Shown here piece after piece: positions 27,473-43,090 of a DNA stretch of 64,000 bases. How positions within the stretch are numbered: the stretch's first letter is position 1; each line of letters opens with the position of its first letter. Below the pieces are notes generated by a model, which was not told where the DNA came from, made no database searches, and was given only the letters and a program-made list of their open reading frames with translations. Location: NCBI GenBank assembly GCA_013372975.1, contig JABXIS010000019.1:1-64000 (forward strand). The letters run 5' to 3'. Source of the DNA: Alphaproteobacteria bacterium (lineage in GTDB: Bacteria; Pseudomonadota; Alphaproteobacteria; Sphingomonadales; Kordiimonadaceae). Both the position numbers and the translations under genes were made by a program.

Positions 27473-27599
27473 ACTCTGCTCCTCCCCTAAGGATATGCCC
27501 GAACCTTTCGGGCGTGTAAGCAGCCTCTGTCTGGTGAAAGCTGCTCTCATGTTTAAACCACTACAGGAAGGCGACCAATAGATGCGCCTCCTGCCCTAC

Positions 27600-29234
27600 C
27601 TAATTGGGTTCAATCTTGAACCCCGCCTTCTGAAGCACCTTCTTCATGGGTTCCAGATGGCTTTCAAATTCTCTCCAGCGCCCTACAGAGCGCGTATGGG
27701 CCTTTTCCCGCACCTGTGCGGCACTGGCCGTTGTCACTGCGGCATCCTGATTATGGAAATCGATACAGGCGCTTTGCCAATCGAGGCCAAGGAAGTCGAT
27801 AATTCGGCGGGCTTCAGGCTCAAGGCCCTGCACCACAGCCTCATATTCAACATCCAGGATACGGTCCCCAAGGACATCTCGCCATGTATCCATCAGCTTG
27901 CGATACCGAACGTGGTGACGCGCCATTTCTTCCTGATCATAGGAATGATAGTAGGCCTCGGCGAACAACTGTTTGTAGCTTGCGAAACAGCTATCCATCG
28001 GGTCACGCACGATATGAATGATCTTGGCATTCGGGAGTGCGGCCGCAATCAGCGGCAGATACATGTAATTTACCGGCAGCTTATCTACAAAATGCAGTGC
28101 ATCCGGGCGTACAGACCGGGTTGTCTCCAGATACAGGTCTCCCAGCGCCTTCATGTCTAGGTCTGGCGCCTTCCTGACAATCTCAGCCGTCATCGGTTTA
28201 GGTGAACTCATCTCCGCAAGGCGCTTTATCGCCATGCCGAACTGCTGCAACTCTCCCGCAGACGCAACATCTGTGTGTGCAGTGATAATGCGCTCAACAA
28301 GTGTGGTACCCGTGCGCGGTTGGCCAACGATGAAGACCGGAGCATCACTCTCCGCACCACCGGGCTGTCCATCAAACCATGACTTATCGAGGGTTTCAGC
28401 GAGTGTATCGAACAACTCGCATTCTGCCGCTTCATCATAATTGATTTGCGACCGCCTGCTTTTTGCCCCGGCCTGATAGGCCTCAAAGGCGGCATCCCAA
28501 TTCGCCTGATCCTCATATTCTTTACCAATGGCATAGTTGAGGAATGCACCGCTTGGATGGTCTGTAGGCAATTTCTTCAGGATTGCCTGCATTTCGTCTA
28601 TATGGCGGCTATCAACAGCCTTATCAAGGCGCGACAGCATCCAGTGAGCCATACCGTCATAAGGCTTTTCCTTAAGGACCAAACGTAACGCGTCCGCAGC
28701 TTCTTCAAGCCTGCCGAGGAAAGTTAGGGCTTTGGCCCGGCTCAGTTCAAAAAAAGATGAGCTGGCGCCGGCAGCAGCCTTGTCGAACCAGATAAGCGCC
28801 TTTTCCTGATCTCCGAGAACGCTATACACATTTCCGATAACGTCCAACACCATGGCATCTGACGGATTGCCTGCTTCCGCCTTATTCAGCGTTTCCTCTG
28901 CAACGGAAAATTGGCCCATCTTTGCACAGCAGCGCGCAAGCTGGGCCCAACCAGCAATATGGTTTTCATCCAATGAAACAACGTTCCTGAACGCCCGGCG
29001 AGCCGTGATCCATTCGCCACTTTCGATACCGACCAAGCCCACAAGAAAGTGCGCTTCAACTTGCTTGGGACGGTATTTTAAAACCAGATTGCAGCAATTG
29101 CCGGCTTCCTTGAAGTCGCGCCGCATCAGGGCTTCATAGCCACGGCGCAAAAACTTGGCCGCGTCCGCCTGCCCCATCTCCCTTGGAGCAGCAGAATTCT
29201 GGCGAAGTCCAGCAATGTGGCCTGATGAATTCAT
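27600..29234 (-). CDS. TPR-sulfotransferase family protein
   Basis: A 544-residue two-part protein. The first 260 residues are tetratricopeptide-type helical repeats (for example FLRRGYEALMRRDFKEAG and ARRAFRNVVSLDENHIAGW). The rest is a PAPS-type sulfotransferase domain with the 5'-phosphosulfate loop VGQPRTGTT (303-311), the 3'-phosphate motif IVRDPMDSCFASYKQLF and a basic late segment. It would move a sulfate from PAPS to an unidentified acceptor. It starts 3 bases after the puuB stop, so it is clearly in the polyamine operon, an unexpected partner. Such genes often neighbour TonB-dependent receptors in marine bacteria, as here. Confidence 0.88.
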   Translation of the reverse strand: MNSSGHIAGLRQNSAAPREMGQADAAKFLRRGYEALMRRDFKEAGNCCNLVLKYRPKQVEAHFLVGLVGIESGEWITARRAFRNVVSLDENHIAGWAQLARCCAKMGQFSVAEETLNKAEAGNPSDAMVLDVIGNVYSVLGDQEKALIWFDKAAAGASSSFFELSRAKALTFLGRLEEAADALRLVLKEKPYDGMAHWMLSRLDKAVDSRHIDEMQAILKKLPTDHPSGAFLNYAIGKEYEDQANWDAAFEAYQAGAKSRRSQINYDEAAECELFDTLAETLDKSWFDGQPGGAESDAPVFIVGQPRTGTTLVERIITAHTDVASAGELQQFGMAIKRLAEMSSPKPMTAEIVRKAPDLDMKALGDLYLETTRSVRPDALHFVDKLPVNYMYLPLIAAALPNAKIIHIVRDPMDSCFASYKQLFAEAYYHSYDQEEMARHHVRYRKLMDTWRDVLGDRILDVEYEAVVQGLEPEARRIIDFLGLDWQSACIDFHNQDAAVTTASAAQVREKAHTRSVGRWREFESHLEPMKKVLQKAGFKIEPN

Positions 29235-29237
29235 TTC

Positions 29238-30548
29238 TTACCCCAATGCATCCTTCAATCTGTAATAGGCCATACCAACCGCCTGAATGGGTGCCTTGAA
29301 CATCTGTCCGCCCGGGAACGGGGGATGTTTGATTTTGGCCATCACATCAAAGCGCTCCATCTGGCCCGAGATTGCCTCGGCAATCAGGCGCGCAGACATA
29401 TGCGTTGGCGCCACGCCGTGCCCTGAATAAGCTTGCGCGAAATAAACATTTGGCGCCAGCCTCCCAAGTTGCGGGATACGGTTCAAACCAATGCCCATAT
29501 AGCCACCCCAGGCATGATCAATTTTCACACCCTTGAGCTGCGGGAATACCTTAAGAACATTCGGCATAATGGCACCAATAATATCCCTCGGATGACGGCC
29601 TGAGTAAGTTGCCAACCCACCAAAAAGTAAACGATTATCGGCAGTTAGTCGAAAGTAATCCAATGCCCAGCGCTGATCACACACAGCAAAGTTCGCGGGG
29701 AGTATTTCTTTTGCAACACTCTCTTCCAACGGTTCCGTCGTCACGATATAGCTGCCCGTTGGCAATATTCGCGATGCCAGTTTTGGCACAAGCTTGCCCA
29801 GATAGGCATTGCCACCCAGAACCAGTATATCTGCGGTGATCCGGCAGGTATCCATATCGATGGTAACCTTGTCGCCATATTCGATCTTGGATACACGTGC
29901 ATCTTCGAAGATTTTGGCACCAAGCTTCTCTGCAGCCCTAGCTTCACCGCGCACAAGATTAAGCACATGGCAATGACCCCACCCCATGTTGGTCAGGCCA
30001 CCGATATAACGGTCTGAACCGACGTAGTTTTTCACCTCGTCAGCACCAACCATTCTCTGCTCGGGCTTGTAGCCAAAAGACTTAAGCGTTTCCATGGATT
30101 CAGCAAGTTCATCCATCTCGCGCTGCTTCATCGCAGCATCGAAATAGCCCCATTTCATATCGCAGTCGATATCATACTTGCTGATCCACTCATCAATGAT
30201 ATCAACGCATTCAACGCCCATTTCCCATGCAGCGCGCGCATTGTCCCGACCGAAAACCTTCTGGATTTTGGACATATTGGACAATTCAGGCCCATAACCG
30301 CCAATCACCTGCCCGCCGTTGCGCCCTGATGCACCCCAACCAATGCGGTTTTGCTCAACAAGGGCAACGTCATAGCCCTTCTCGGCAAGATGCAGCGCAG
30401 CCGCGACGCCGGTGAAACCGCCCCCCACCACGCACACATTCACATGCATATTACCTTCCAGCCGCCTGAAGGGCGTCAGGTCATTGCATGTCGCCGTATA
30501 ATAGGACGGCGGGAACTGGTCGGTGTGAATGGAATCACGAATACGCAT
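29238..30548 (-). CDS. puuB: Gamma-glutamylputrescine oxidase-like FAD enzyme (copy 1)
   Basis: A 436-residue flavoprotein of the DAO family. It oxidises gamma-glutamylputrescine to gamma-glutamyl-gamma-aminobutyraldehyde with release of ammonia and H2O2 (PuuB in E. coli, PauB in Pseudomonas). The FAD dinucleotide motif is VNVCVVGGGFTGVAAALHLAE (split around residue 40), followed by VALVEQNRIGWGASGRNGGQ, the typical DAO second motif. DYFRLTADNRLLFGG and YSGHGVAPTHM lie near the end. ATG 30548 follows GAGG. It lies 8 bases after puuA1. A second oxidase is at 33692; the two share the family marks but differ clearly, which suggests different polyamine conjugates. Confidence 0.92.
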   Translation of the reverse strand: MRIRDSIHTDQFPPSYYTATCNDLTPFRRLEGNMHVNVCVVGGGFTGVAAALHLAEKGYDVALVEQNRIGWGASGRNGGQVIGGYGPELSNMSKIQKVFGRDNARAAWEMGVECVDIIDEWISKYDIDCDMKWGYFDAAMKQREMDELAESMETLKSFGYKPEQRMVGADEVKNYVGSDRYIGGLTNMGWGHCHVLNLVRGEARAAEKLGAKIFEDARVSKIEYGDKVTIDMDTCRITADILVLGGNAYLGKLVPKLASRILPTGSYIVTTEPLEESVAKEILPANFAVCDQRWALDYFRLTADNRLLFGGLATYSGRHPRDIIGAIMPNVLKVFPQLKGVKIDHAWGGYMGIGLNRIPQLGRLAPNVYFAQAYSGHGVAPTHMSARLIAEAISGQMERFDVMAKIKHPPFPGGQMFKAPIQAVGMAYYRLKDALG

Positions 30549-30556
30549 ACAGGCCT

Positions 30557-31915
30557 CTAGATAATCCTTAAGTAGTTTTCATAGTCAGCAGCGCTGATTT
30601 GCCGGTGGAAATCCTCTTCCTCTGAGCGGCGAACCCGAAGGTACAGATCCACAAAATCATTACCCAGATAGGTGCGCATGATCTTGCTTTTCTCAAGCAC
30701 ATCGAGAGCAATACGCCAACGTGGAGGCAATACGCCTGCAAAATCCACAAGATCGAATTCACCCAGCGGCTCACCAGGATCGCTTTCTTCTTCCATACCG
30801 TAAAAGGCGCCGGCAAGGATGGCTGCCACAACCAGATGCGGGCAAACGTCAGCACCACACACCCGATGTTCAAACCGGCGATTTGCATCATCTGAAAGCG
30901 GCAAGCGTACGCTCAGGCGGCGGTTATTTTCGCCCCAATTCGGCACCACGGGCGCAAACCACTCTGGATCAAAGCGGCGGAAACTGTTCGCATTTGGGGC
31001 AAAAAAGGCTGTGGCCTGCGGCATGGTGCGCAACAGACCACCCACCGCGTGCGCGAGCCTAGCCTCACCTTCCTCACCCGAGAAAATATTTTCGCCTTCG
31101 GCATCCAACACGCTGACATGCGCGTGCAGGCCATTGCCCACTTCGTCAAAGATTGGCTTGGCCATAAAACTGGCAAGCAGGCCGTGCTTCAACGCCACTG
31201 ACTTCACTGCACGTTTCAGAAGAAGCGCGTCATCACATGCTTTCTCCACATCGGAGGTATGCTGCAGGTTCACTTCGAACTGGCCGTTGCCATACTCGCA
31301 AACCAGCCCGATAACTTCGAGGCCCTGCGCCCGACAGCCATCTTCGATTTCCTGCATCAAGCCTTCGAAATCGTAGAAAATATCCATGTTATAGCAGTTG
31401 GCACCAGTCGCAGCCGCCATACCGTTTGGCGGCGATACTGGCACTGGAGGCACCGATCCTGCTTCGAACAGGAAAAATTCATACTCAAGCGCAATAACCG
31501 GCTTGAGCCCTTTTTCGCTATAATGATCGAGAACGCCCTGCAACACAGTGCGCGGATCCATGAAAAACGGAGATCCGTCAGTATCTTGCATTGTAACCTG
31601 AATCTGCGCGGTAGGTCGGCTTGCCCAGGGCACCACCTTCAACGTGCCAGGCACCGGCATACACACCCTGTCTGGGTCGCTACCATAATCATCGAGAATG
31701 GATTCAGCATTGGCGCCATTGGTGGTCAGAAAAGGTGTGGTAATCGGAAAAGGAATACCATTTTTCGCCAAATTCTTGAGGCCGGATATTGGCATCTGCT
31801 TGCCGCGGAAGATGCCATTCATATCGGCGATCATCACTTCCACGGTTTCAATTTCCGGATTGGCTTCAAGAAAAGCCTGTATTTCCTCAGTCATTGGCAT
31901 TTGTCTATTGCTCAC
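30557..31915 (-). CDS. puuA: Gamma-glutamylpolyamine synthetase, glutamine-synthetase family (copy 1)
   Basis: A 452-residue enzyme of the glutamine synthetase family, joining glutamate to a polyamine amino group with ATP, the entry reaction of the gamma-glutamyl route. It has the IADMNGIFRGKQMP start, EYEFFLFE (metal site), NGLHAHVSV and the RFEHRVCGADVCPHLVVAAIL C-terminal part. Absence of the adenylylation tyrosine loop is usual for PuuA-type proteins. It starts at GTG 31915, directly after the gabD stop, with GGGG at 7 bases. A paralogue lies in the opposite arm (36643). Confidence 0.92.
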   Translation of the reverse strand: MSNRQMPMTEEIQAFLEANPEIETVEVMIADMNGIFRGKQMPISGLKNLAKNGIPFPITTPFLTTNGANAESILDDYGSDPDRVCMPVPGTLKVVPWASRPTAQIQVTMQDTDGSPFFMDPRTVLQGVLDHYSEKGLKPVIALEYEFFLFEAGSVPPVPVSPPNGMAAATGANCYNMDIFYDFEGLMQEIEDGCRAQGLEVIGLVCEYGNGQFEVNLQHTSDVEKACDDALLLKRAVKSVALKHGLLASFMAKPIFDEVGNGLHAHVSVLDAEGENIFSGEEGEARLAHAVGGLLRTMPQATAFFAPNANSFRRFDPEWFAPVVPNWGENNRRLSVRLPLSDDANRRFEHRVCGADVCPHLVVAAILAGAFYGMEEESDPGEPLGEFDLVDFAGVLPPRWRIALDVLEKSKIMRTYLGNDFVDLYLRVRRSEEEDFHRQISAADYENYLRII

Positions 31916-31916
31916 A

Positions 31917-33371
31917 TTAAATCCCCGCCATGCAGAGATATTTTACTTCAACATAATCTTCGATACCGTAGCGTGAGCCCTCGCGACCGAGGCCGGATTG
32001 CTTCACGCCACCAAATGGCGCCACTTCAGTTGACAGGATACCTGTATTTATACCGACCATGCCATACTCAAGCGCCTCCGCCACACGCCAAACGCGGGAC
32101 AGATTGTTGGCATAGAAATAAGAGGCCAAACCAAATTCCGTGTCGTTTGCTTGCGCCACAACGTCAGCTTCGTCACTGAAACGGAACACAGGCGCCACAG
32201 GGCCAAAGGTTTCCTCGCGGGCCACCTTCATCTCTTTGGTAACATTTTTCAGAAGAGTTGGCTCGAAGAAGCTACCGCCCTTTTGATGCCGCTTGCCGCC
32301 TGCAACAAGTTCGGCACCTTTCGACAGTGCGTCGGCAATATGGTCTTCCACTTTTTCAAGGGCTTCAATATTGATAAGCGGCCCCTGCACAACACCATCC
32401 TCCGCACCATCACCTACTTTCATTTCAGCGACTTTAGCAGCCAGCTTTTCAACGAAGGTGTCATATACGCCATCCTGTACATACATACGGTTTGCGCATA
32501 CACACGTCTGCCCTGAATTACGATATTTGGACGCCATAGCGCCTTCAACTGCGGCATCAAGATCAGCATCGTCAAATACGATGAACGGCGCGTTACCCCC
32601 CAATTCCAGCGATACCTTCTTGATATCATCTGAACACTGACGCATCAAAACGCGCCCTACTTCGGTGGACCCTGTGAAGGTTAACTTGCGCACGGCCTCA
32701 TTGGCGCACATCTCGCCACCGATGTCGCGCGATTTGGTACCTACCACAACATTCAAGAGCCCCTTGGGCAAACCTGCGCGTTCAGCCAACTCGGCCAATG
32801 CAAGCGCAGAAAGCGGTGTCTCTGCAGCCGGTTTAACGATAACAGGACAACCAACTGCAAGCGCGGGCGCCACCTTACGAGTGATCATGGCATTAGGAAA
32901 ATTCCACGGCGTAATTGCCGCCACGACGCCAATCGCTTGCTTTAATACAATAATTCTCTTGTCCGCCTGATGCTGGGGAATTACATCGCCATACAGGCGC
33001 TTACCCTCTTCCGCGAACCACTCAATAAAGCTGGCACCATAAGCGATTTCACCACGCGCCTCGGCAAGTGGCTTACCCATCTCTGCCGTCAATATCTGAG
33101 CCAGGTCCTCTTGCGCTTCCATGATCAGCTGATACCAGCGCTTCAGAATCTTTGACCGGTCATTCGCCACACGGCCACGCCAATCAACAAAGGCAGCTTC
33201 GGCAGCCTCGATCGCACGGCGGGTTTCTTCGGCGCCCATGTTTGGCAAGGATGCCAGCACCTCGCCTGTCGCTGGATTGGTAACATTGAAAGTTTCGCCG
33301 CTATCCGCACCAACCCAGGAGCCATCAATATAGCCAGCATTCTTCAACAGACCACGATCCGATAAATGCAT
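31917..33371 (-). CDS. gabD: Succinate-semialdehyde dehydrogenase
   Basis: A 484-residue NAD(P)-dependent aldehyde dehydrogenase, oxidising succinate semialdehyde to succinate, the last step of GABA breakdown. Family marks are the TPWNFPNAMITRK region, the nucleotide loop FTGSTEVGRVLM, LELGGNAPFIVFDDAD with its catalytic Glu, and the catalytic Cys in NSGQTCVCANRMYV, the GabD-type signature. I start at ATG 33371, giving a length close to E. coli GabD (482); the frame is open 17 residues further. It is the promoter-proximal gene of the leftward arm and faces the control region at 33372-33691. Confidence 0.93.
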   Translation of the reverse strand: MHLSDRGLLKNAGYIDGSWVGADSGETFNVTNPATGEVLASLPNMGAEETRRAIEAAEAAFVDWRGRVANDRSKILKRWYQLIMEAQEDLAQILTAEMGKPLAEARGEIAYGASFIEWFAEEGKRLYGDVIPQHQADKRIIVLKQAIGVVAAITPWNFPNAMITRKVAPALAVGCPVIVKPAAETPLSALALAELAERAGLPKGLLNVVVGTKSRDIGGEMCANEAVRKLTFTGSTEVGRVLMRQCSDDIKKVSLELGGNAPFIVFDDADLDAAVEGAMASKYRNSGQTCVCANRMYVQDGVYDTFVEKLAAKVAEMKVGDGAEDGVVQGPLINIEALEKVEDHIADALSKGAELVAGGKRHQKGGSFFEPTLLKNVTKEMKVAREETFGPVAPVFRFSDEADVVAQANDTEFGLASYFYANNLSRVWRVAEALEYGMVGINTGILSTEVAPFGGVKQSGLGREGSRYGIEDYVEVKYLCMAGI

Positions 33372-33691
33372 TTTTCTTTCATCCCACAAACAATGAGCAA
33401 AGCCACCAACCCAGCAGCGCATTACTCACCACAATACGCAATTCGGTTAACAACACAGCCTTCCAAGCGCTCCGCAATGTGATCACAAAATATAGATGCT
33501 GTCAACATCCCCAAACTGCATTTTAACGAAACTCGCCATGTGAAATAGCAGAAAATCTATATTTATAAAGAAATTCCATTATTGACGATGAGTAAATTGC
33601 TTTCTTGACGACACGTCATTTTTGTGATCACATTATCTCAAGTTTATTGCTTTTGGTGCATGCAGTGCACCGGATTTCTAAAGGTGTAATC
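33372..33691. promoter_or_regulatory. Divergent control region of the polyamine locus
   Basis: About 320 AT-rich bases between gabD and the second puuB, with no gene. It holds two perfect copies of the 10-bp palindrome TGTGATCACA (33478-33487 and 33623-33632), 145 bases apart. A 10-bp inverted pair AAATATAGAT/ATCTATATTT (33488-33497, 33555-33564) begins directly after the first copy. A TGACG-ACA-CGTCA dyad (33606-33618) lies within two TTGACGA repeats (33592, 33605). These are good candidates for operators of the local GntR regulator or a CRP/FNR-like protein controlling both arms. The symmetry is seen directly; the protein that binds is not known. Confidence 0.7.
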
Positions 33692-34981
33692 TTGGCACAA
33701 CAGATTGAACATACCGGCTCATTCTATGCAGCCACCGCGAACCAGACATTGGACCGCCCCGCTCTCTCTGGCGACATTGAAGCTGATATTTGCATCGTTG
33801 GCGCTGGCTTCACAGGCATGGTCACAGGCTTGACTTTGTCTGAGCTTGGTTATGATGTGGTAATTCTGGAAGGTGCCAAGGTGGGCTGGGGCGCTTCGGG
33901 CCGCAATGGCGGCCAGATCATCAATGGCTTCAGCCGTGAAATTGGCTATATCGAGGAAGTGGCTGGCCCAGAAGGAGCCAAGGCACTAGCCTCCCTTGCG
34001 CTTGAGGGCGGCAATGTCATTCGCGAGCTGGTTTCCCGCTACGGCATCCAGTGTGACCTTAAATACGGCTCTGTGCTTGCTGCCTATACAGACAAACAGG
34101 TCCGCAGCCTGGGCGAAACAAAAGCGATGTGGGAATCACGCGGCAGAAACGGCATTGAGATGCTGGATCGCCGGACGATCCGCGATCATGTGGGTACTGA
34201 CAAATATGTTGGTGGCTGGATCGACCATAAAGGTGGTCACATCCACCCGCTCAACCTGGTGCAAGGCGAAGCGGCTGCGGCCGAATCCAAAGGCGCTCGA
34301 ATTTTCGAACAAACCCGTGTCGTACGGGTTGATCACCATCTGAATACACCAGTTGTGCACACGGAAGGCGGTTCGGTTACAGCCCGTTCTGTTGTTCTGG
34401 CAGGTAATGCTTATCTCGGTAAAACCGTGAAACAGCTCTACCCCAAAATCTTGCCCGCCAGTACCCAGATCATCGTAACCGAACCGCTTTCCGATTCCTT
34501 GGCCAAGGAAATTCTGCCTACAGACATGTGCGTTGAAGATGCCAATTATGTACTCGATTACTTCAGGCTCACGGCTGACAAGAGACTGCTTTTTGGCGGC
34601 GGTACTGTTTATGGCGGTGCAGACATCAAAGATGTTGAGAAAGCACTTCGTCCCAATATGGAAAAGCTCTTCCCAATGGCCAAGGACCTGAAGGTCGACT
34701 ATGGCTGGCAGGGCAACATAGCACTGACGTGGTCGCGCCTGCCCCATGTGGGCCGACTTGGCAAAAGTACTTATTTTGCCCATGGCTACAGCGGCCACGG
34801 CGTAACCAGCTCGCATATGATGGGGCGCTTGCTCGCGCATGCACTTCACGGCGATGCCAGCCATTTCGATGTCTTTGAAGGGATGCCTGCAAGAAGCTTC
34901 CCCGGTGGGCAGCTTCTTAGTGTACCATTGAGCACGTTGGGATGCTGGTGGTATTCGCTTAGAGATAAACTGGGCGTTTAG
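33692..34981 (+). CDS. puuB: Gamma-glutamylputrescine oxidase-like FAD enzyme (copy 2)
   Basis: A 429-residue DAO-family flavoprotein, paralogue of the oxidase at 29238, with ADICIVGAGFTGMVTGL for FAD binding, VGWGASGRNGGQIINGF and YSGHGVTSSHM near the end. It should oxidise gamma-glutamylated polyamine to the aldehyde. No ATG fits the N-terminus: I choose TTG 33692, with AAGGTG five bases before, giving MAQQIEHTGSFYA. An earlier TTG at 33605 would run through the operator region and adds 29 hydrophobic residues unlike the family. It is the first gene of the rightward arm. Confidence 0.9.
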   Translation: MAQQIEHTGSFYAATANQTLDRPALSGDIEADICIVGAGFTGMVTGLTLSELGYDVVILEGAKVGWGASGRNGGQIINGFSREIGYIEEVAGPEGAKALASLALEGGNVIRELVSRYGIQCDLKYGSVLAAYTDKQVRSLGETKAMWESRGRNGIEMLDRRTIRDHVGTDKYVGGWIDHKGGHIHPLNLVQGEAAAAESKGARIFEQTRVVRVDHHLNTPVVHTEGGSVTARSVVLAGNAYLGKTVKQLYPKILPASTQIIVTEPLSDSLAKEILPTDMCVEDANYVLDYFRLTADKRLLFGGGTVYGGADIKDVEKALRPNMEKLFPMAKDLKVDYGWQGNIALTWSRLPHVGRLGKSTYFAHGYSGHGVTSSHMMGRLLAHALHGDASHFDVFEGMPARSFPGGQLLSVPLSTLGCWWYSLRDKLGV

Positions 34982-35011
34982 CCCGAAGGTGGGACTGTGG
35001 GGAATATTTCG

Positions 35012-35851
35012 ATGACGGCAGAGCGGCGCATTTTAGGCCTGAAACCGGAAAGCTTGTTTCAGCTTTTTAAATACACGATATACACGCTGATTTTTTTCAA
35101 TCTGATCTATTTCCTGCGTGAGGAATATCTAGCGACCGCAGCCCGCTTCCCGGAAGGCGTCGGCTTTGGCATGCTGATTGATGCCTTTTCACAGTCCACC
35201 GACTCATTCGCCTGGCTCGTTCTACTTCTCGCTTTCGAGCTTGAAACCTATGTGATCCCCGATGAAAAGCTTAAAGGTGCTGTAAAGTGGGGCCTCAATA
35301 TCGTTGCAGGCATTTGTTATGTTCTGATCACGCAAGCCCTTATTGGTTATATCAACCACTGGGAAGTTATCACGGAATTCTCGCCTTATGCAGGTGTGGC
35401 GTGTAGCGTTGCGGGAACTGATGCGACGCTTGCCGTCGATCTTTATGAGTTCCTGCCCCTTACCACAGAGAATTGTGGGCAACTTGCCACTAACCAGACC
35501 TTCTACAACGCGGGCCTCAATAGCTTTGCAACTGCCGAAATGGCACCTGAACTCTATAATCTTGCACTGACCGATGTAGTGAATGCCTCAACCTGGCTGC
35601 TGATCGTCGTCGTGCTTTGGATCGACATTTTCCTGCAGTTGCGCGGTGAACTGACAGCCCGCCTCTATAAATGGAATGGCGCTGTTAAGGCTGTTCTTTA
35701 CCTAACCCTGATCGCCTGCTGCTCCTATTGGGCGTGGCTTGGTGATTTCATGGGCTTCTGGGATGCTCTTCTCTGGATTTTGGCCTTCTTCTTTATCGAG
35801 CTGAACCTCTTCAAGTGGCATTCCAGTGAAGAAGCGGAGGTCGCGGCATGA
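35012..35851 (+). CDS. Unrecognised six-helix membrane protein in the polyamine operon
   Basis: A 279-residue integral membrane protein I do not recognise. Helices are predicted near 16-38, 62-82, 94-116, 188-206, 222-243 and 246-266. A loop of about 70 residues (117-187) follows helix 3 and carries Cys residues in GVACSVAG and TENCGQL that could form a disulfide if it faces the periplasm. Charged residues occur in helices (LLAFELETYV, VLWIDIFLQL). It starts at ATG 35012 (GGGGA upstream) or GTG 34997. Its stop overlaps puuD by four bases (ATGA), so it is a true operon member between the oxidase and the hydrolase. Transporter, sensor or membrane anchor are all possible. Confidence 0.8.
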   Translation: MTAERRILGLKPESLFQLFKYTIYTLIFFNLIYFLREEYLATAARFPEGVGFGMLIDAFSQSTDSFAWLVLLLAFELETYVIPDEKLKGAVKWGLNIVAGICYVLITQALIGYINHWEVITEFSPYAGVACSVAGTDATLAVDLYEFLPLTTENCGQLATNQTFYNAGLNSFATAEMAPELYNLALTDVVNASTWLLIVVVLWIDIFLQLRGELTARLYKWNGAVKAVLYLTLIACCSYWAWLGDFMGFWDALLWILAFFFIELNLFKWHSSEEAEVAA

Positions 35852-36597
35852 AACCGATTGTAGCCATTATTTGCGATACCTCGAAGCAAGGCCCGCATAT
35901 GTATCATCAGGTTGGCGATAAATATGTCGAAGCACTTGTGCGCTGTGCTGATGTAACACCGGTCCTGATCCCGGCGCTTGATGAACCCGTTACAGCTGAA
36001 GAAATTTTCGCCATCGCCGACGGCATCCTGTTTACCGGCGGATACAGCAACATCCAACGCCACCACTATGGTGAAGCGGATGCACCCGAAGGTGAGCATG
36101 AGGACCCACGCCGCGACAAAAACACATTGCGGATGGTGGCTGCGGTCTTGGAAGCAGGTGTTCCCATGCTGGGGATTTGCCGCGGCCTGCAGGAACTGAA
36201 CGTAGCCATGGGCGGTACGCTCTATCCACGCGTTCATGAAATTGAAGGCCGCATGGACCATCGGGAAGACAAAAACGCCCCAGTGGACGTGCAGTATGGC
36301 CCAGCCCACGCGGTTTCCGTTCGTGATGGCGGCATGCTGCATGCCATCACCGGCGAAACCCGCTTTGATGTGAACACAGTGCACGGCCAAGCCATCCGGG
36401 ATGTTGCCCCCGCCCTTGCGGTAGAAGCCGTGGCAGACGATGAAACCATCGAAGCCGTATCAGTGATTGATGCCAAAGCATTTGCCCTTGCAGTGCAGTG
36501 GCACCCGGAATGGAAAGCCTGGGAAGACAAGCAATCCACAAAGATTTTCCAAGCGTTCGGCAATGCCGTGCGCGCCCATAAAGCTAACCGAAGCTAA
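35848..36597 (+). CDS. puuD: Gamma-glutamyl-GABA hydrolase
   Basis: A 249-residue class I glutamine amidotransferase-like hydrolase releasing GABA and glutamate from gamma-glutamyl-GABA. The nucleophile elbow is GICRGLQELN (Cys111) and the catalytic His/Glu lie in VQWHPEWKAW. ILFTGGYSNIQRHHYGE and the FDVNTVHGQAI region match PuuD proteins. ATG 35848 follows GGAGG and overlaps the stop of the membrane-protein gene. It supplies the only hydrolase of the locus, serving both synthetase/oxidase pairs. Confidence 0.93.
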   Translation: MKPIVAIICDTSKQGPHMYHQVGDKYVEALVRCADVTPVLIPALDEPVTAEEIFAIADGILFTGGYSNIQRHHYGEADAPEGEHEDPRRDKNTLRMVAAVLEAGVPMLGICRGLQELNVAMGGTLYPRVHEIEGRMDHREDKNAPVDVQYGPAHAVSVRDGGMLHAITGETRFDVNTVHGQAIRDVAPALAVEAVADDETIEAVSVIDAKAFALAVQWHPEWKAWEDKQSTKIFQAFGNAVRAHKANRS

Positions 36598-36642: not shown

Positions 36643-38004
36643 ATGTATGATGCAAAGCGCATCGAAGAGCTGGATAACTGGCTGAAAGCCGAAAACATTG
36701 ACGACATCGAATGTATGGTGGCGGACAACGCGGGTATCGCCCGCGGCAAGTCCATGCCCCGCGTCAAATTTATTGAAGGTTTGAAATCACGAGGCCTCAA
36801 GCTGCCCGAGCCTGTTTTCGGCCTGACCATCACGGGCGATTACGCCCTGAATGACCATCTGGTAGAAACCGAACGTGATGTCATCCTGATGCCTGATCTG
36901 GACACGCTGTGCATGACACCGTGGCAACCAGAGCCGACGGCGGCTGTAATCTGCGATGCAGAGCTGGAAAACGGTGATCCTTGCGTATTTTCGCCTCGTC
37001 AGGTGCTGAAGAACGTTCTGAAACTGTATGAGGACGAAGGCTGGCAACCAATCGTTGCTCCTGAGTTCGAATTTTACCTGATCGACCGGCAAGAAGATGT
37101 GGAATCTTCGCCAATTTCCCCTGTCGGTGCCTCAGGCAGAAGGGATGTGGGCTCTGCCCCCTATTCCATCGACAGTTTGGACGAATATGCCGCCTATTTC
37201 GATGATGTGTATGACGCGTGCGAGGCACAGCGCATCGATGTGGATGAATTGATCCATGAAGCTGGCCCCGCACAATTTGAGTTCAACGTGACACACGGCC
37301 CGGCCCTTCAGGTTGCGGATCAGTCCTTCCTGTTCAAGCGCATCCTCCGGGCTATTGCTATCCGACACAATATGTTCTGTACCTTCATGGCCAGCCCATA
37401 CCCGGATAGCTACGGCAGCGCAATGCACATTCACCAGTCCGTAGTCGACATCAAAACTGGCAAAAACATCTTCGCAAATGAGGACGGCAGCCATTCTGAC
37501 CTGTTCCTCAGCCATATCGCTGGCCTGCAGAAATACCTGCATGAATCCATGCCTTTGTTTGCGCCATTCGTGAACAGCTACCGCCGTTTCTCATTGGCGT
37601 GGTCAGCGCCTACCAATACCCACTGGAGCCGGGAGAACCGCTCAGTTGGCTTGCGCGTACCAAGCGGCCCCAAAGAAGCGCGGCGCATTGAAAACCGTAT
37701 TGCAGGCTCCGATGTGAACCCCTATTTCGCGATCGCAACCTCGCTGGCATGTGGTTACATCGGCATGAAAGAAGGTCTTGAGCCTTCTCCTGAATTCAAG
37801 GGTTCCGCCTATGAAACGCGCGGCAAGGCGCTTCCACGCCACTTCCTTGAAGGCATGAAGAACATGCGCCGCTCCAAAGCGATCAAAGAAGTTTTCGGTG
37901 AGGCCTTCGTGGAAACCTATCTCGATGCCAAGGAAATGGAATATGACAGCTATTCATCTGTTCTAAGCCCTTGGGAAACAAAATATCTTTTGCTTACGGT
38001 GTAA
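36643..38004 (+). CDS. puuA: Gamma-glutamylpolyamine synthetase (copy 2)
   Basis: A 453-residue glutamine synthetase-family enzyme, paralogue of the protein at 30557. The N-terminus IECMVADNAGIARGKSMP, the metal-site APEFEFYLIDRQE, GSAMHIHQSV and the RRIENRIAGSDVNPYFAIA end segment are all typical. It should couple glutamate to putrescine or another polyamine. Sequence differences from copy 1 are spread over the whole length, so this is an old duplication or separate acquisition, not a recent copy. The spacing to puuD is 45 bases. Confidence 0.93.
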   Translation: MYDAKRIEELDNWLKAENIDDIECMVADNAGIARGKSMPRVKFIEGLKSRGLKLPEPVFGLTITGDYALNDHLVETERDVILMPDLDTLCMTPWQPEPTAAVICDAELENGDPCVFSPRQVLKNVLKLYEDEGWQPIVAPEFEFYLIDRQEDVESSPISPVGASGRRDVGSAPYSIDSLDEYAAYFDDVYDACEAQRIDVDELIHEAGPAQFEFNVTHGPALQVADQSFLFKRILRAIAIRHNMFCTFMASPYPDSYGSAMHIHQSVVDIKTGKNIFANEDGSHSDLFLSHIAGLQKYLHESMPLFAPFVNSYRRFSLAWSAPTNTHWSRENRSVGLRVPSGPKEARRIENRIAGSDVNPYFAIATSLACGYIGMKEGLEPSPEFKGSAYETRGKALPRHFLEGMKNMRRSKAIKEVFGEAFVETYLDAKEMEYDSYSSVLSPWETKYLLLTV

Positions 38005-38007
38005 GTT

Positions 38008-39387
38008 ATGAACGAACAATCAAATCGCACGAAATACTGGCAAAGCCAGGACGCAGACCATCACCTTCACCCTTTCACATCGCATCCGGCGCTGCGTGAG
38101 CGCGGCGTCCGTATGATCACCGGTGCCAAGGGTATCTATCTTGAAGATAGCGAAGGCGAGAAGATCCTCGATGCCATGGCGGGTCTCTGGTGCACACAGA
38201 TCGGCTATGGTAATGAAGAAATGGTAGAAACTGCGGCGGATGCCATGCGCAACCTCAGCTACTACAACCTCTTTTTCATGACGTCGAATCCTTACGCTAC
38301 CGAGCTTGCCGCCAAGATCGCTGAGAAGACGCCAGGTGATGTCAATCAGGTGCTGTTTGCCTGCTCCGGCTCTGAAGCAGTTGATAGCGCGTACAAGCTG
38401 GTAAAATATTACTGGAACCTGAAGGGCCAGCCAAACCGCAAACAGTTCATTGCGCGCGAACGGGCTTACCATGGTTCTACAACGGTGGCAGCGTCTCTTT
38501 CCGGCCTTACGGGCATGCATCCGCAGTTTGATCTGCCACTTGAGGGTATCCACCATGTGGGCCCGACGCCTCATCACTACAAATTTGGCGGTGATCTCTC
38601 GGAAGAAGACTTCTGCGACCAGTGTGTTCAGGCAATCGAAGACAAAATCCTCGAGCTAGGCCCTGAGAATGTGGCAGCTTTTGTTGGCGAGCCTGTCATG
38701 GGTGCCGGCGGCATGATGCCGCCACCTGAAGGTTATTGGCCCAAGGTTGAAGCGCTTTGCCGAAAATATGGCATCCTCCTTTGGTGTGATGAAGTGATCA
38801 CCGGCTGGGGCCGCACAGGCGAATGGTTCGGTTCCACCTATTACGGTATCCAACCTGACATCATCACCATGGCGAAAGGCCTTTCATCAGGCTATCAGCC
38901 GATTTCCGCCGTTGCGCTCGGTGGTGATATCGCCACTCAAATCGCGAAAAGCGATGAAGAGATGGTTCATGGCTTCACCTATTCTGGGCACCCGGTAGCC
39001 TGTGCCGTTGCACTGAAGAACATCGAAATCATGGAACGCGACGGGCTTGTGGCCACTGATGCCGCAAAAGCCCGCATCGCTTACTTCCAGGAAAAGCTGC
39101 AAACCCTTGCCGACCATCCGCTGGTCGGTCAGGTGCGCGGTGTTGGCATGCTTGGTGGGCTTGAGCTCGTAAAAGACAAGGCTACCAAAGAGCCGTTTGA
39201 TCCTGCACTCGACGTTGGCTTCAAATGCCGTGAACATTGCTTTGGCAACGGACTGATCATGCGCGCTGTGGGCGACAGCATGATCCTGTGTCCGCCGCTC
39301 GTGATCACCGATGATGAAATAGATGAGCTTGTCACCAAGGCGCGCCTGGCGCTTGACCTGACAGCCAAACAGATTGGCGTGATGTAG
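38008..39387 (+). CDS. spuC: Putrescine:pyruvate aminotransferase-like enzyme
   Basis: A 459-residue class III PLP aminotransferase resembling Pseudomonas SpuC, which transfers an amino group from putrescine or other diamines to pyruvate. Marks are HHLHPFTSHPALRERG at the start, GLWCTQIGYGNEEM, FACSGSEAVDSAYKLVKYYW, LLWCDEVITGWGRTGEW and the Schiff-base Lys in TMAKGLSSGYQPISAV. It starts 3 bases after puuA2. It gives the locus a transamination alternative to the oxidases, making the aminoaldehyde without H2O2. Confidence 0.92.
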   Translation: MNEQSNRTKYWQSQDADHHLHPFTSHPALRERGVRMITGAKGIYLEDSEGEKILDAMAGLWCTQIGYGNEEMVETAADAMRNLSYYNLFFMTSNPYATELAAKIAEKTPGDVNQVLFACSGSEAVDSAYKLVKYYWNLKGQPNRKQFIARERAYHGSTTVAASLSGLTGMHPQFDLPLEGIHHVGPTPHHYKFGGDLSEEDFCDQCVQAIEDKILELGPENVAAFVGEPVMGAGGMMPPPEGYWPKVEALCRKYGILLWCDEVITGWGRTGEWFGSTYYGIQPDIITMAKGLSSGYQPISAVALGGDIATQIAKSDEEMVHGFTYSGHPVACAVALKNIEIMERDGLVATDAAKARIAYFQEKLQTLADHPLVGQVRGVGMLGGLELVKDKATKEPFDPALDVGFKCREHCFGNGLIMRAVGDSMILCPPLVITDDEIDELVTKARLALDLTAKQIGVM

Positions 39388-39397
39388 GGAGTTTGCC

Positions 39398-40894
39398 ATG
39401 ACAGAAAAAACACACGGTTATTGGCGTGCAAAAGCCAAGGAAGCCAAAGTTCACACGCAGGCCTATATTGGCGGCAAACGTATGAACGCGGCCTCGGGCG
39501 AGACGTTTGAAACCATCAACCCCGCAACGGGTGAAGTGATCGCCGATATCGCAGCGTGCGACAAAGCAGATGTTGATCTGGCAGTGAAAGCGGCGCGTGA
39601 TGCGTTCAAAAGCGGCGTCTGGGCCGATCTCCATCCTTCCGAACGCGGCAAAGTGATGATCAAGTTTGCAGACTTGATGGAAAAACATGCCGATGAACTC
39701 GCGGTTCTTGAAGTGATGGACATGGGCAAGCCCATTTCTGACGCCGTTTCCATCGACATCCCTGCAAGTGTGAATTCCATCCGCTGGTATGGTGAAGCCG
39801 CCAACAAGGTGTTGGATGAGATCGCACCAACGGATCCGTCGGCACTGGCCATGATCACCCGTGAACCCATTGGCGTGGTGGCTGCGGTTGTGCCGTGGAA
39901 CTTCCCACTTCTGATGGCCTGCTGGAAGCTGGGCCCTGCCCTCGCAACCGGCAACTCCGTGATTTTGAAACCTGCTGAGCAGTCACCACTGACAGCGCTC
40001 CGGATCGCTGATTTGGCCGAAGAAGCAGGCATTCCTGCAGGCGTTCTCAATATCGTACCCGGCCTTGGCCACACAGCTGGCAAGGCGCTTGGCCTTCATA
40101 TGGATGTGGACGGCCTGGCTTTCACTGGCTCCACGCAAGTTGGCAAATATTTCATGGAGTATTCCGGCCAATCAAACCTGAAGCGCATCGCACTGGAATG
40201 CGGTGGCAAAAGTCCGCACATCATTATGGACGATTGCCCTGACCTTGATGCCGCTGCCCAGGCAGCTGCAGGGGCCATCTTCTTCAACCAGGGTGAAGTG
40301 TGCACCGCAGGCTCCCGCCTGCTGGTGGACAGCAAGATCAAGGACGAGTTCCTCGCCAAAGTACTCGAGGCAGCCAAAAGCTGGGTGCCCGGTGACCCGC
40401 TTGACCCTGCAACAAACCTTGGCGCCATAGTGGACGATAGCCAGCACAAGCGTGTTCTCAGCTATATTGACGTTGCAGGCAAAGATGGCGGCAAACTCAT
40501 GGCCGGTGGCGCAGCAGCACGCACCGAGACCGGCGGCTACTTCGTTCAGCCAACCATCTTTGACGGTGTAACGCCAGAGATGACCATTGCGCGTGAGGAA
40601 ATTTTTGGCCCGGTATTGGCTGTGATCGAATTTGACGGCGAAGAAGAGGCCATCGAGATCGCCAACAACACCATCTACGGCCTTGCGGCCGCTGTATGGA
40701 GCAAAGACATCAGCCGGGCGCACCGCATGGCGCGCGCGCTGCAGGCAGGTACCGTCTGGGTAAACTGCTGGGACCCAACAGGCGATCTTTCGATCCCGTT
40801 TGGCGGTTACAAACAGTCTGGTTTCGGGCGTGACAAATCTTTACACGCACTGGATAAATACACGAACCTGAAAACAACCTGGGTTCAGCTATAA
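39398..40894 (+). CDS. puuC: Gamma-glutamyl-gamma-aminobutyraldehyde dehydrogenase
   Basis: A 498-residue NAD-dependent aldehyde dehydrogenase, oxidising gamma-glutamyl-gamma-aminobutyraldehyde (or 4-aminobutanal) to the acid. Evidence: VVPWNFPLLMACWKLGPALA, the FTGSTQVGKYFM nucleotide loop, ALECGGKSPHIIMDDCPD with the catalytic Glu, and the catalytic Cys in NQGEVCTAGSRL. The C-terminus is PuuC-like (PFGGYKQSGFGRDKSLHALD). It begins 10 bases after spuC with GGGAG. A strong terminator follows, closing the enzyme part of the rightward arm. Confidence 0.94.
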   Translation: MTEKTHGYWRAKAKEAKVHTQAYIGGKRMNAASGETFETINPATGEVIADIAACDKADVDLAVKAARDAFKSGVWADLHPSERGKVMIKFADLMEKHADELAVLEVMDMGKPISDAVSIDIPASVNSIRWYGEAANKVLDEIAPTDPSALAMITREPIGVVAAVVPWNFPLLMACWKLGPALATGNSVILKPAEQSPLTALRIADLAEEAGIPAGVLNIVPGLGHTAGKALGLHMDVDGLAFTGSTQVGKYFMEYSGQSNLKRIALECGGKSPHIIMDDCPDLDAAAQAAAGAIFFNQGEVCTAGSRLLVDSKIKDEFLAKVLEAAKSWVPGDPLDPATNLGAIVDDSQHKRVLSYIDVAGKDGGKLMAGGAAARTETGGYFVQPTIFDGVTPEMTIAREEIFGPVLAVIEFDGEEEAIEIANNTIYGLAAAVWSKDISRAHRMARALQAGTVWVNCWDPTGDLSIPFGGYKQSGFGRDKSLHALDKYTNLKTTWVQL

Positions 40895-40947: not shown

Positions 40948-42324
40948 ATGGAAACAGCGGCAGAACTTGGCCATCAGGGCATTATAACGCTGATACCTAC
41001 ATTGATTGTCCTTGTGCTCGCGGTAACACTCAGGCGGCCGATCGAGGCCCTGATGATCGGTGCGATTGCAGGCATCATCATGATTGATGGCGGCGACTTC
41101 ATCACCGTTACGGCAGAAACATCGATGCGGGTGTTGGCGGATGAGGACCTGATCTGGGTGATCCTCGTGTGCGGCGCCATGGGCAGCCTTATCGGCCTGT
41201 TTATCCGCACCGGGGCCCTTGCCGCCTTCGTTGATATTGTTACCCGGCGTGTCACCAGCCGCTTCAGTGCTCTCATGGCAACATGGGTTCTGGGCTGTGC
41301 CTTGTTCGTTGACGATTATCTCAACTCCATTACCGCGGGCGCCGCCATGCGCAAAATCACAGATAGCTACCGCGTGAGCCGCGAAATGCTGGCCTATGTG
41401 ATCGATACAACAGCCGCGCCCGTGAGCGTGATCATCCCCCTGTCCACGTGGGGCGTGTTTTTCGCATCCCTTCTTGTGGACACCGGCCTCGCCAAAGAGG
41501 GCCAGGGCATCTGGGCATATATCTCGGGCATACCCTATATGCTCTATCCCTGGATCGCGCTATTGATGGTGCCCCTGGTAGCAAGCGGTAAAATCCCGCT
41601 TATTGGGCCAATGAGAAAGGCTGAATACCGGGCGCGTGAATATGGCCAAACCATCCCGCCCGGAGCCGAACACATCCAGGAAGCCAACGAGGTCATTACT
41701 GAAAAGGAAGGTGTGAAACGTAATATCTGGCTGTTTGTCTTGCCTCTCGCGGCACTTGTCGGCCTGACAATCCACTATGACATGGAATTCCTGCCGGCCA
41801 CATACGCCACGCTTGGTTTGATGATTATTGCCATCCTTGTCATGCGCATCATGGACCATCACGATACTTTCAATACAGTAATCGACGGCTTCAAAACCAT
41901 GATCGAAGCACTGGCGATCATTTTCGCGGCGTACATGCTGAAAGATATCAACAGCCAGCTTGGTCTGACCAACTATATTCTGGAACTGACAAAACCCTTC
42001 ATGACGGCACAGACACTGCCCTTCATCGTGTTTGGTGTTATGGGGCTTATCGCGTTCGCTACAGGATCTAGCTGGGGCATGTTCGTGATTGCTCTGCCTG
42101 TAATTGCGGAACTGACAATCTCGTCTGGCGCCAGTGTCCCTCTGATTATTGGTGCGACGCTCTCTGCCAGCACATTTGGTAGTCACGCCTGTCTGTATGC
42201 CGATGCAACAGTGCTGACAGCACAAAGTTGTGGCACTACTTCCATCCAACACGCGCTTTCCCAGTTGCCTTATGCGGCGATTGCTGCGCTATTATCCTTG
42301 ATAGGGTTCGCCTTCCTTGCGTAA
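40948..42324 (+). CDS. NhaC-family transporter
   Basis: A 458-residue inner-membrane protein with about 11-12 helices in the Na+/H+ antiporter NhaC family. Typical stretches are GCALFVDDYLNSITAGAAMRKI, TTAAPVSVIIPLSTWGVFF, AFATGSSWGMFVIALPV and FGSHACLYADATVLTAQSCG. Members include sodium/proton and amino-acid or organic-cation antiporters. Its place between puuC and the GntR regulator suggests polyamine, GABA or amino-acid exchange, but this is inference from context. GGGAGGGG precedes the ATG. The gene ends 10 bases before the regulator. Confidence 0.9.
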   Translation: METAAELGHQGIITLIPTLIVLVLAVTLRRPIEALMIGAIAGIIMIDGGDFITVTAETSMRVLADEDLIWVILVCGAMGSLIGLFIRTGALAAFVDIVTRRVTSRFSALMATWVLGCALFVDDYLNSITAGAAMRKITDSYRVSREMLAYVIDTTAAPVSVIIPLSTWGVFFASLLVDTGLAKEGQGIWAYISGIPYMLYPWIALLMVPLVASGKIPLIGPMRKAEYRAREYGQTIPPGAEHIQEANEVITEKEGVKRNIWLFVLPLAALVGLTIHYDMEFLPATYATLGLMIIAILVMRIMDHHDTFNTVIDGFKTMIEALAIIFAAYMLKDINSQLGLTNYILELTKPFMTAQTLPFIVFGVMGLIAFATGSSWGMFVIALPVIAELTISSGASVPLIIGATLSASTFGSHACLYADATVLTAQSCGTTSIQHALSQLPYAAIAALLSLIGFAFLA

Positions 42325-42334
42325 GAAGGAGCTT

Positions 42335-43090
42335 ATGAGCAAAAACGACATCAATTTCGATAAACTCGACCGCGTTGAAAACGAAACAGCCCAGGAATGG
42401 GTATACCGGGCCCTGCGTTTCGCTGTTATGTCCGGACAGGTTCAGCCTGGACGAGCCCTCACGATCCGAGGCATTGCACAGATGCTGGATGTGTCAGCGA
42501 TGCCTGTCCGTGAGGCTTTGAGGCGCCTTACATCCGAAGGCGCGCTCGAATTGAAGTCGAACAGGCGCATCATGGTACCAGACCTGACACCCGCCAAATT
42601 GGCCGAACTTCTTGAACTGAGGATCATGTTGGAAGTTCATGCTGCAGAGCGCGCCCTGCCCTATGTGACCGATGAGCGCCTCGCCTTATTGCAGGAATTA
42701 AACGAGGAGCAGAACAAAGCCTTCGAGTCCCCTGACCCGCAAGGCATCATCATAGGCAACCAGGCCTTCCACAGGGCGCTGTATCTGGCCCATCCACATG
42801 CGGTGACCATGCCTATGATCGAGCGGGTTTGGCTTCAGCTTGGCCCGCTTCACAGGCTCGCACTGGCGAACCTTGAAGAGCATTATGTTACCGACAGGCA
42901 TGTGGAGATCATGAAAGCCATCGAAACCCGAAACCCATTTGGGCTAAAGGCCGCGATTGAGGCCGACATCAGGGATGGCGCGGGTTACATGACCCAGACA
43001 GAGCTTCTGGAACGCTACACCCGTGATGAGGCAGAAGACCTTTCTATGCCGGGCATTGATTATATGCGGCAGCTTGCCAAAACGGTCTGA
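42335..43090 (+). CDS. GntR-family regulator with FCD domain
   Basis: A 251-residue DNA-binding regulator. The N-terminal winged helix-turn-helix spans about 15-78 (TIRGIAQMLDVSAMPVREALRRLTSEGALEL region), and the all-helical C-terminal FCD-type ligand domain about 85-235 (LLELRIMLEVHAAERAL, NQAFHRALYLAHPH with probable metal-binding His). FCD ligands are usually small carboxylates. I start at ATG 42335 with AAGGAG just upstream. As the last gene of the rightward arm it is the obvious candidate to bind the palindromes at 33478 and 33623, perhaps sensing GABA, glutamate or a gamma-glutamyl intermediate. Convergent with ddpX, only 3 bases apart. Confidence 0.9.
   Translation: MSKNDINFDKLDRVENETAQEWVYRALRFAVMSGQVQPGRALTIRGIAQMLDVSAMPVREALRRLTSEGALELKSNRRIMVPDLTPAKLAELLELRIMLEVHAAERALPYVTDERLALLQELNEEQNKAFESPDPQGIIIGNQAFHRALYLAHPHAVTMPMIERVWLQLGPLHRLALANLEEHYVTDRHVEIMKAIETRNPFGLKAAIEADIRDGAGYMTQTELLERYTRDEAEDLSMPGIDYMRQLAKTV

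Follow-up and report, generated by a model that had tools for sequence, protein, structure and literature searches.

The gene for a membrane protein of 279 amino acids, predicted to have six helices and therefore called the six-helix protein here, lies at 35012..35851 on the + strand of the window, by which we mean the whole stretch of 64,000 nucleotides that was analysed. It has an ATG start, for which the in-frame GTG at 34997 could serve instead. Upstream is a gene for a PuuB-like FAD oxidoreductase of the DAO family (33605..34981, +, with a TTG start as listed; DAO E 5.2e-70, the Pfam scan having used 33662-34981), and 30 bases separate the two. At the other end the TGA overlaps the ATG of a gene for a PuuD-like gamma-glutamyl-GABA hydrolase (Peptidase_C26; 35848..36597, +) as ATGA at 35848-35851. 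The position between puuB and puuD with a four-base overlap, as first described, is thus confirmed by the coordinates. The operon continues on the + strand with a PuuA-like synthetase of the glutamine synthetase family (Gln-synt_C; 36643..38004), a class-III aminotransferase (38008..39387), a PuuC-like aldehyde dehydrogenase (39398..40894), a transporter assigned by Pfam to the NhaC family (PF03553; 40948..42324) and a GntR-family regulator (42317..43090).

The six-helix gene is present in a single copy in the window genome. It is not a chance reading frame, since homologues are found in 21 of the 28 other genomes of the family; 19 of these, one a partial piece, share 41-74% identity with it, and most of them adjoin puuD. 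Beside the operon, at 29238-33422 on the - strand, there is a second, divergent set consisting of a DAO-family PuuB-like gene, a Gln-synt_C PuuA-like gene and an aldehyde dehydrogenase gene, and the locus therefore has two PuuA-like and two PuuB-like paralogues.

Distribution of the family and search for relatives

The six-helix family is patchy and mainly proteobacterial. Counting the window genome itself, it was found in 22 of the 29 genomes of the family and 40 of the 296 of the order, and in only 2 of the 289 genomes of the class sample and 3 of the 398 of the phylum sample. When one genome of each species was scanned, 332 relatives were obtained; the 80 best of these were retained, and the sample therefore leans toward sequences like that of the window. 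These 80 are Kordiimonas-labelled genomes and their relatives, an Emcibacteraceae MAG, Microbulbifer and other Cellvibrionales, Woeseiaceae, Lysobacterales and a few others. All gene contexts below cover the best 80 of 332 relatives together with the order. They amount to 110 copies from 105 loci, a few loci having been fetched twice under two names, and to 108 distinct proteins.

Scans of the window protein and 57 aligned members against Pfam and NCBIfam gave no credible match; a clear match to a known transporter or housekeeping membrane family would have spoken against the original prediction. The nearest profile, PF23694 (YmiC), was seen at E 0.039, under its cut-off, and was judged to be a chance match. 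Searches of PDB sequences with the window protein and with a profile gave no match. Among the 181 Foldseek matches up to E 10, none was at E 0.001 or better. With VIA-align the best Z, 11.3, was to a helical bundle; UbiA-like prenyltransferases reached Z 7-8 and b-type cytochrome/NOX folds reached Z 6.6-7.6, and each of these values lies within the background stated for helical models. We recognised no paper describing the family among open-licence papers, to which the literature search was confined, and this is a weak absence. Its tripartite motif agrees with none of the families that were compared. It seems that the six-helix protein is new both as a family and in its architecture, while its likely task, polyamine import, is already known.

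Predicted structure and conserved residues

AlphaFold2, run with 57 aligned homologues, predicts six long helices for the window protein (mean pLDDT 91.3, pTM 0.86). The model of a divergent paralogue with 26% identity (pLDDT 89.7, pTM 0.84) concurs, and in both the six long helices are accompanied by a small insert, which contains strands and separates helix 3 from helix 4. In the window, all on the + strand, the odd helices are TM1 (residues 12-45; 35045..35146), with the motif K20-x3-Y24, TM3 (residues 90-120; 35279..35371), with 99-x3-Y103, and TM5 (residues 216-242; 35657..35737), with K226-x3-Y230. The even helices carry another motif, which is D64-x3-W68-x3-L72-x3-E76-x-E78 in TM2 (residues 60-81; 35189..35254), N191-x3-W195-x3-V199-x3-203-x-D205 in TM4 (residues 177-210; 35540..35641) and D251-x3-W255-x3-F259-x3-E263-x-N265 in TM6 (residues 246-278; 35747..35845). 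The insert (residues 121-176; 35372..35539) has short strands and the invariant Cys131 and Cys155.

The most conserved residues lie mainly in the membrane helices. Among the 108 distinct homologues from the best 80 of 332 relatives and the order, W68, W195 and E76 are found in 108, W255, D64 and D251 in 107 and E263 in 103, and Cys131 and Cys155 are both present in 108 of 108. Two motif positions are exceptions and are not highly conserved: 99 has R in 57 and K in 10 of the proteins, and 203 has E in 63. In the window protein, with A99 and W203, this TM3/TM4 rung is degenerate. T79, W240, W269 and L71 are highly conserved yet lie outside the motif, and the C-terminal tail is variable. Most of what had been read from the letters is seen again here: the helices, put at about six, are six in the AlphaFold2 model, the loop with two Cys corresponds to the insert, and the acidic residues noticed inside helices (D64, E76, D251, E263) rank among the most conserved positions.

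The fraction of Lys and Arg is 0.16-0.25 in the stretches assumed to be on the inner side and 0.02-0.05 in the outer ones, and an N-in/C-in topology therefore fits. The insert between TM3 and TM4 would then be extracytoplasmic, and Cys131 and Cys155 probably form a disulfide.

A probable repeat of helix hairpins

It appears that the six-helix protein is a triple repeat of helix hairpins, a feature that the original prediction had missed and that is well supported, if short of certain. The motif of the repeat is [KR]x3Y on the odd helices and [DN]x3W(x7)E on the even ones, with a degenerate form in helices 3 and 4, and the spacing of the invariant residues is the same in each of helices 2, 4 and 6. 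When profiles of single helices were compared, the E-values of the even pairs were 1.1e-5 for TM2-TM4, 1.2e-3 for TM4-TM6 and 2.4e-3 for TM2-TM6, with scores of 21.9, 15.6 and 14.0 that were reached by 0, 0 and 4 of 120 column shuffles. For the odd helices the E-values were 8.5e-4 for TM1-TM5 and 4.1e-3 for TM3-TM5; the scores of the three pairs were 15.2, 12.7 and 8.3, and these were reached by 1, 5 and 55 of 120 shuffles. As controls, the nine odd-even pairs scored 4.7-8.2 and reversed even helices 8.6-11.1. The TM1-TM3 similarity is thus not significant alone, as 55 of 120 shuffles reach its score of 8.3, and the best odd-even pair has 8.2.

The registers found pair by pair concur. In the odd helices K20 = 99 = K226 and Y24 = Y103 = Y230, and in the even helices D64 = N191 = D251, W68 = W195 = W255, L72 = V199 = F259, E76 = 203 = E263 and E78 = D205 = N265. 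Against a membrane background the register shared by the pairs takes rank 1 among 361 for the even as well as the odd set (z 4.6 and 3.8), and the mixed control triples rank 16, 17 and 78. Removing the D, W and E columns lowers the even-helix register to rank 13 of 361, while it is still at rank 1 when W alone is removed; the odd-helix register falls to rank 3 without Y and to rank 5 without K and Y. The signal of the repeat thus rests largely on the motif columns. With hhalign the probabilities for whole hairpins were low (23%, 4.8% and 1.5%), and among single helices only TM2-TM4 was high (82%).

Covariation between K/R at position 99 and E at 203 was considered as support for an ionic pair. 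The counts (60, 7, 3 and 38; Fisher 1.7e-18) look convincing, but the association fails on the tree, where there are only 3 independent pairs on supported branches, of which a mean of 2.4 (range 1-3) agree and 0 oppose. With just 3 independent pairs it cannot be significant, and we do not count it as evidence.

Gene neighbourhood

As pathway genes we counted six types, PuuA, PuuB, PuuD, class-III aminotransferase, agmatinase and flavin amine oxidase. At least two of these types are found within 8 kb of the six-helix gene in 62 of the 110 copies (best 80 of 332 relatives and the order), and these are referred to as pathway contexts. The remaining copies lie by yhdP/rng/maf (19) or by Fic/SDR-type genes (9), or have one pathway gene (8) or none (12) nearby. 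In this sample the homologues are consequently not found mostly outside polyamine loci, which would have spoken against the original prediction. Even so, 28 of the 110 copies are in two other contexts, 27 of them without any pathway gene.

In 52 of the 110 copies (best 80 of 332 relatives and the order) there is a pathway gene on the same strand within 250 bp, and contig ends cut many loci short. With M for the six-helix protein, A, B, C and D for the Puu genes and T for the class-III aminotransferase, these close neighbours are D 28, B 15, T 8, C 6, A 4 and ox 2. In Kordiimonas the genes run puuB-M-puuD-puuA. Lysobacterales and similar MAGs have aminotransferase-agmatinase-puuD-M, a further family of the order has puuA-aminotransferase-puuB-M-puuC, and puuA-M is seen in some Gammaproteobacteria. 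Such reshuffled orders with retained company are stronger evidence than a single conserved operon. Furthermore, pathway contexts are seen both in the main group and in a divergent paralogue group of the protein tree, which is unrooted, and the link to amine genes may thus be old. In the same tree the yhdP context is one clade, and the Fic context needs two changes, a single origin being possible.

Within the family the association is close. The six-helix gene adjoins puuD on one contig in 18 of the 22 positive genomes; in G006 it is split across contig ends, with its final residues ahead of puuD, in G028 its neighbour is puuA, and G007 and G003 showed no pathway gene in its vicinity. Among the 29 genomes of the family, 20 have both the six-helix protein and PuuD (G007 with a weaker, unlinked PuuD), 2 have the six-helix protein alone, 2 have PuuD alone and 5 have neither. 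The homologue in G003 (locus L028) is in two pieces in different frames, possibly through a sequencing error, and that genome has no puuD match and no puuA at the cut-offs used.

The 19 copies in the yhdP context are from Microbulbifer (L045, L050, L056 and 16 other loci); they follow maf-rng-yhdP and are without the K/R99-E203 pair. In L070 and L074 two six-helix paralogues share one amine locus, and one of the two is directly preceded by the gene for a SulP-STAS protein that carries a cyclic-nucleotide-binding domain.

Relation to known polyamine importers

In the order, 296 genomes were searched for the six-helix protein and 292 for puuA and PotA, using E 1e-90 for puuA homologues and the curated cut-off of 355.6 bits for PotA. 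The six-helix protein is found in 35 of the 62 genomes with puuA, as compared to 5 of the 230 without it. One of these five (G003) has the frameshifted copy and lacks a PuuD match, and another (G120) has a partial match only. Of the puuA-positive genomes, 33 have the six-helix protein only, 27 have PotA only, 2 have both (G012 and G065) and 0 have neither, an exclusivity with a Fisher value of 1.5e-15 that ignores descent. The split follows family lines, with the six-helix protein in f1, f2 and f8 and PotA in f5 and f6, and there are therefore few independent events behind it. The best PotA-model score in the window genome is 156 bits, and in G013, counted as lacking PotA, there is a near-miss of 334.7 bits. 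In 39 genomes reached through other six-helix loci, mostly outside the order and with completeness unstated, PotA was over the cut-off in 8.

The location of the Pot genes gives a similar picture. We collected 20 stretches, of which 16 came from the 27 puuA-positive genomes without the six-helix protein, 2 were second puuA loci in genomes with the six-helix protein elsewhere (G004 and G005) and 2 were puuD-only. Pot-type permeases were linked in 13 of the 18 puuA loci without the six-helix protein, as compared to 0 of the 105 loci with it, among which puuA is within 8 kb in 34 (best 80 of 332 relatives and the order). The Pot-type proteins were named by their best NCBIfam match, and only one of them exceeds a cut-off for polyamine transport, an ATPase that scores above the one for potA. 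As to the five other puuA loci, L217, L220 and L221 have PotA elsewhere in the genome, and two are the second loci of G004 and G005.

Another membrane protein of the locus could also be considered as importer. By a crude hydropathy count, which missed at least one NhaC-family gene (L035), no other protein with at least five helices lies within 8 kb in 42 of the 62 pathway contexts (best 80 of 332 relatives and the order), and in this sample an NhaC-family transporter like that of the window operon is seen in 6 of the 62. An AA_permease_2 protein is present in 23 of the 29 genomes of the family, in the window genome as one unlinked copy. The exclusivity test covered PotA, whose absence says nothing about APC permeases; an AA_permease_2 protein or the NhaC-family protein of the operon could be the importer.

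Possible function

The observations above argue, as we see it, that the six-helix protein is probably an undescribed inner-membrane importer, a carrier or a channel, of polyamines or related cationic amines. This is supported by the linkage, by the near-exclusivity with PotA, by the similarity between the hairpins and by a motif at repeat-equivalent positions, and it is the neighbouring genes that point to the direction of transport and to the substrate. Against it stand the 28 of 110 copies (best 80 of 332 relatives and the order) in non-amine contexts. The original prediction, an undescribed membrane component of the gamma-glutamyl polyamine pathway, is strengthened: no known family was found for the protein, the linkage to amine genes extends over several gene orders in Alpha- and Gammaproteobacteria, and within the order the protein is associated with puuA. 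Among its three guesses for the function, a polyamine channel or transporter has gained most.

Such an importer would feed the cytoplasmic gamma-glutamylation pathway encoded around it, taking the place of PuuP in the E. coli puu cluster and of the Pot-type ABC systems in related genomes. We suggest that TM2, TM4 and TM6 line a central path, where the substrate, with its amine groups and methylene chain, would be held by Asp/Asn near the outer side, the three Trp and Glu toward the inner side. The Lys/Arg residues on the odd helices may pair with these Glu as inner ionic locks, and the disulfide may hold the outer insert. A more far-reaching idea, which we put forward tentatively, is that the protein could be the first representative of a novel carrier class, with a path for a polycation formed by a pseudo-threefold Asp/Asn-Trp-hydrophobic-Glu ladder and inner Lys/Arg-Glu locks, a bacterial architecture analogous to the mitochondrial carriers, unrelated to them, and a whole alternative to Pot/PuuP uptake.

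An exporter or exchanger, which would release amines or pathway products (GABA, excess diamine) against toxicity or swap a product for a substrate, is unlikely. The acidic and aromatic motif in the membrane would suit a cationic ligand in either direction, and the importing could be done by the NhaC-family transporter that the window operon encodes separately. However, an exporter would not predict the near-exclusivity with PotA among the puuA genomes of the order, and most six-helix contexts are without another linked polytopic protein by the crude count. It also seems improbable that the protein is a sensor or a membrane anchor, binding extracellular or membrane amines and controlling or docking soluble enzymes. 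The outer insert with its invariant Cys pair, the variable tail and the close coupling to puuD, including the overlap, would agree with this, but no signalling domain was found in the 57 aligned proteins, the top conserved residues are mainly in the membrane helices, and the close same-strand neighbour varies, so that there is no fixed docking partner. That the protein serves the flavin oxidase PuuB as a redox partner and hands its electrons on to quinone is very improbable, for although PuuB-like (36) or amine-oxidase (10) genes are within 8 kb in the 62 contexts (best 80 of 332 relatives and the order), the Cys pair is invariant and a few weak structural matches were to b-type cytochrome/NOX folds at background level, the test for haem or redox ligands found no column of the 108 sequences in which His or Met exceeds 50%, 20 of the 62 contexts have neither gene within 8 kb (some loci ending at contig ends), and the charge-based topology puts the Cys pair on the outer side.

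The importer that we propose can be compared with those already described. The E. coli cluster puuPADRCBE includes puuP, PuuP imports putrescine, and the known bacterial importers of polyamines are of the Pot type and the PuuP/PlaP type, according to PMC9397018. The six-helix protein is similar to PuuP in sitting in a gamma-glutamyl putrescine cluster and in its proposed role. PuuP is an APC-type permease of about 12 helices, unlike the six-helix protein with its six, and there was no match to APC (PF13520, AA_permease_2) at E 1 for the window protein or the 57 members. The Pot ABC systems share the proposed role and are linked to puuA in 13 of the 18 collected loci without the six-helix protein, but PotABCD and PotFGHI differ in being multi-subunit, ATP-driven and equipped with a binding protein. 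No sequence relation was found, with no BPD_transp_1 match in the 57 members in Pfam or NCBIfam. According to PMC11414716, four acidic and four aromatic residues of PotD (acidic plus Trp/Tyr) contact spermidine, and the six-helix protein, in which three parallel helices present Trp and acidic residues on one face, recalls this recognition of amines.

Two families of small membrane proteins were considered as relatives. The mitochondrial carriers (SLC25) have six helices as three hairpin repeats, with the signature PX[DE]XX[KR] in each odd helix. The six-helix protein shares the threefold hairpin repeat, at the sequence level only, whereas its conserved acidic/Trp motif is on the even helices. 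Membership was rejected: PF00153 is absent among all 15 families matched by any of the 57 members at E 1, and the signature is absent from 97 of the 108 sequences and occurs once in each of the other 11. The other family is PACE/BTP (PF05232), where AceI moves diamines. It also has tandem two-helix repeats, but in two pairs as compared to three in the six-helix protein, and it was rejected since the profile comparison gave E 0.07 or worse, with 7.8e-15 for the positive control, and no credible Pfam match was found in the 57 members.

According to PMC8437039, polyamines are regarded as an important component of marine dissolved organic matter. If the six-helix protein is an importer, some genomes seemingly unable to import polyamines would do so via an unannotated route. 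Its threefold sequence repeat would be a new example of hairpin triplication, and the predictions at residue level (three Trp, paired Asp and Glu) would indicate how a small membrane protein could handle a flexible polycation.

Further upstream in the window, at 25136-29234 on the - strand, Pfam identifies a TonB-dependent receptor and a TPR-sulfotransferase gene. Each of these is found within 8 kb in 29 of the 62 pathway contexts, and both together in 27 (best 80 of 332 relatives and the order). This travelling together with the pathway loci suggests either an outer-membrane partner or a separate, linked system. At locus L048, in a MAG labelled Bacteroidetes, the six-helix gene lies between the genes for a TonB-dependent receptor and a flavin amine oxidase.
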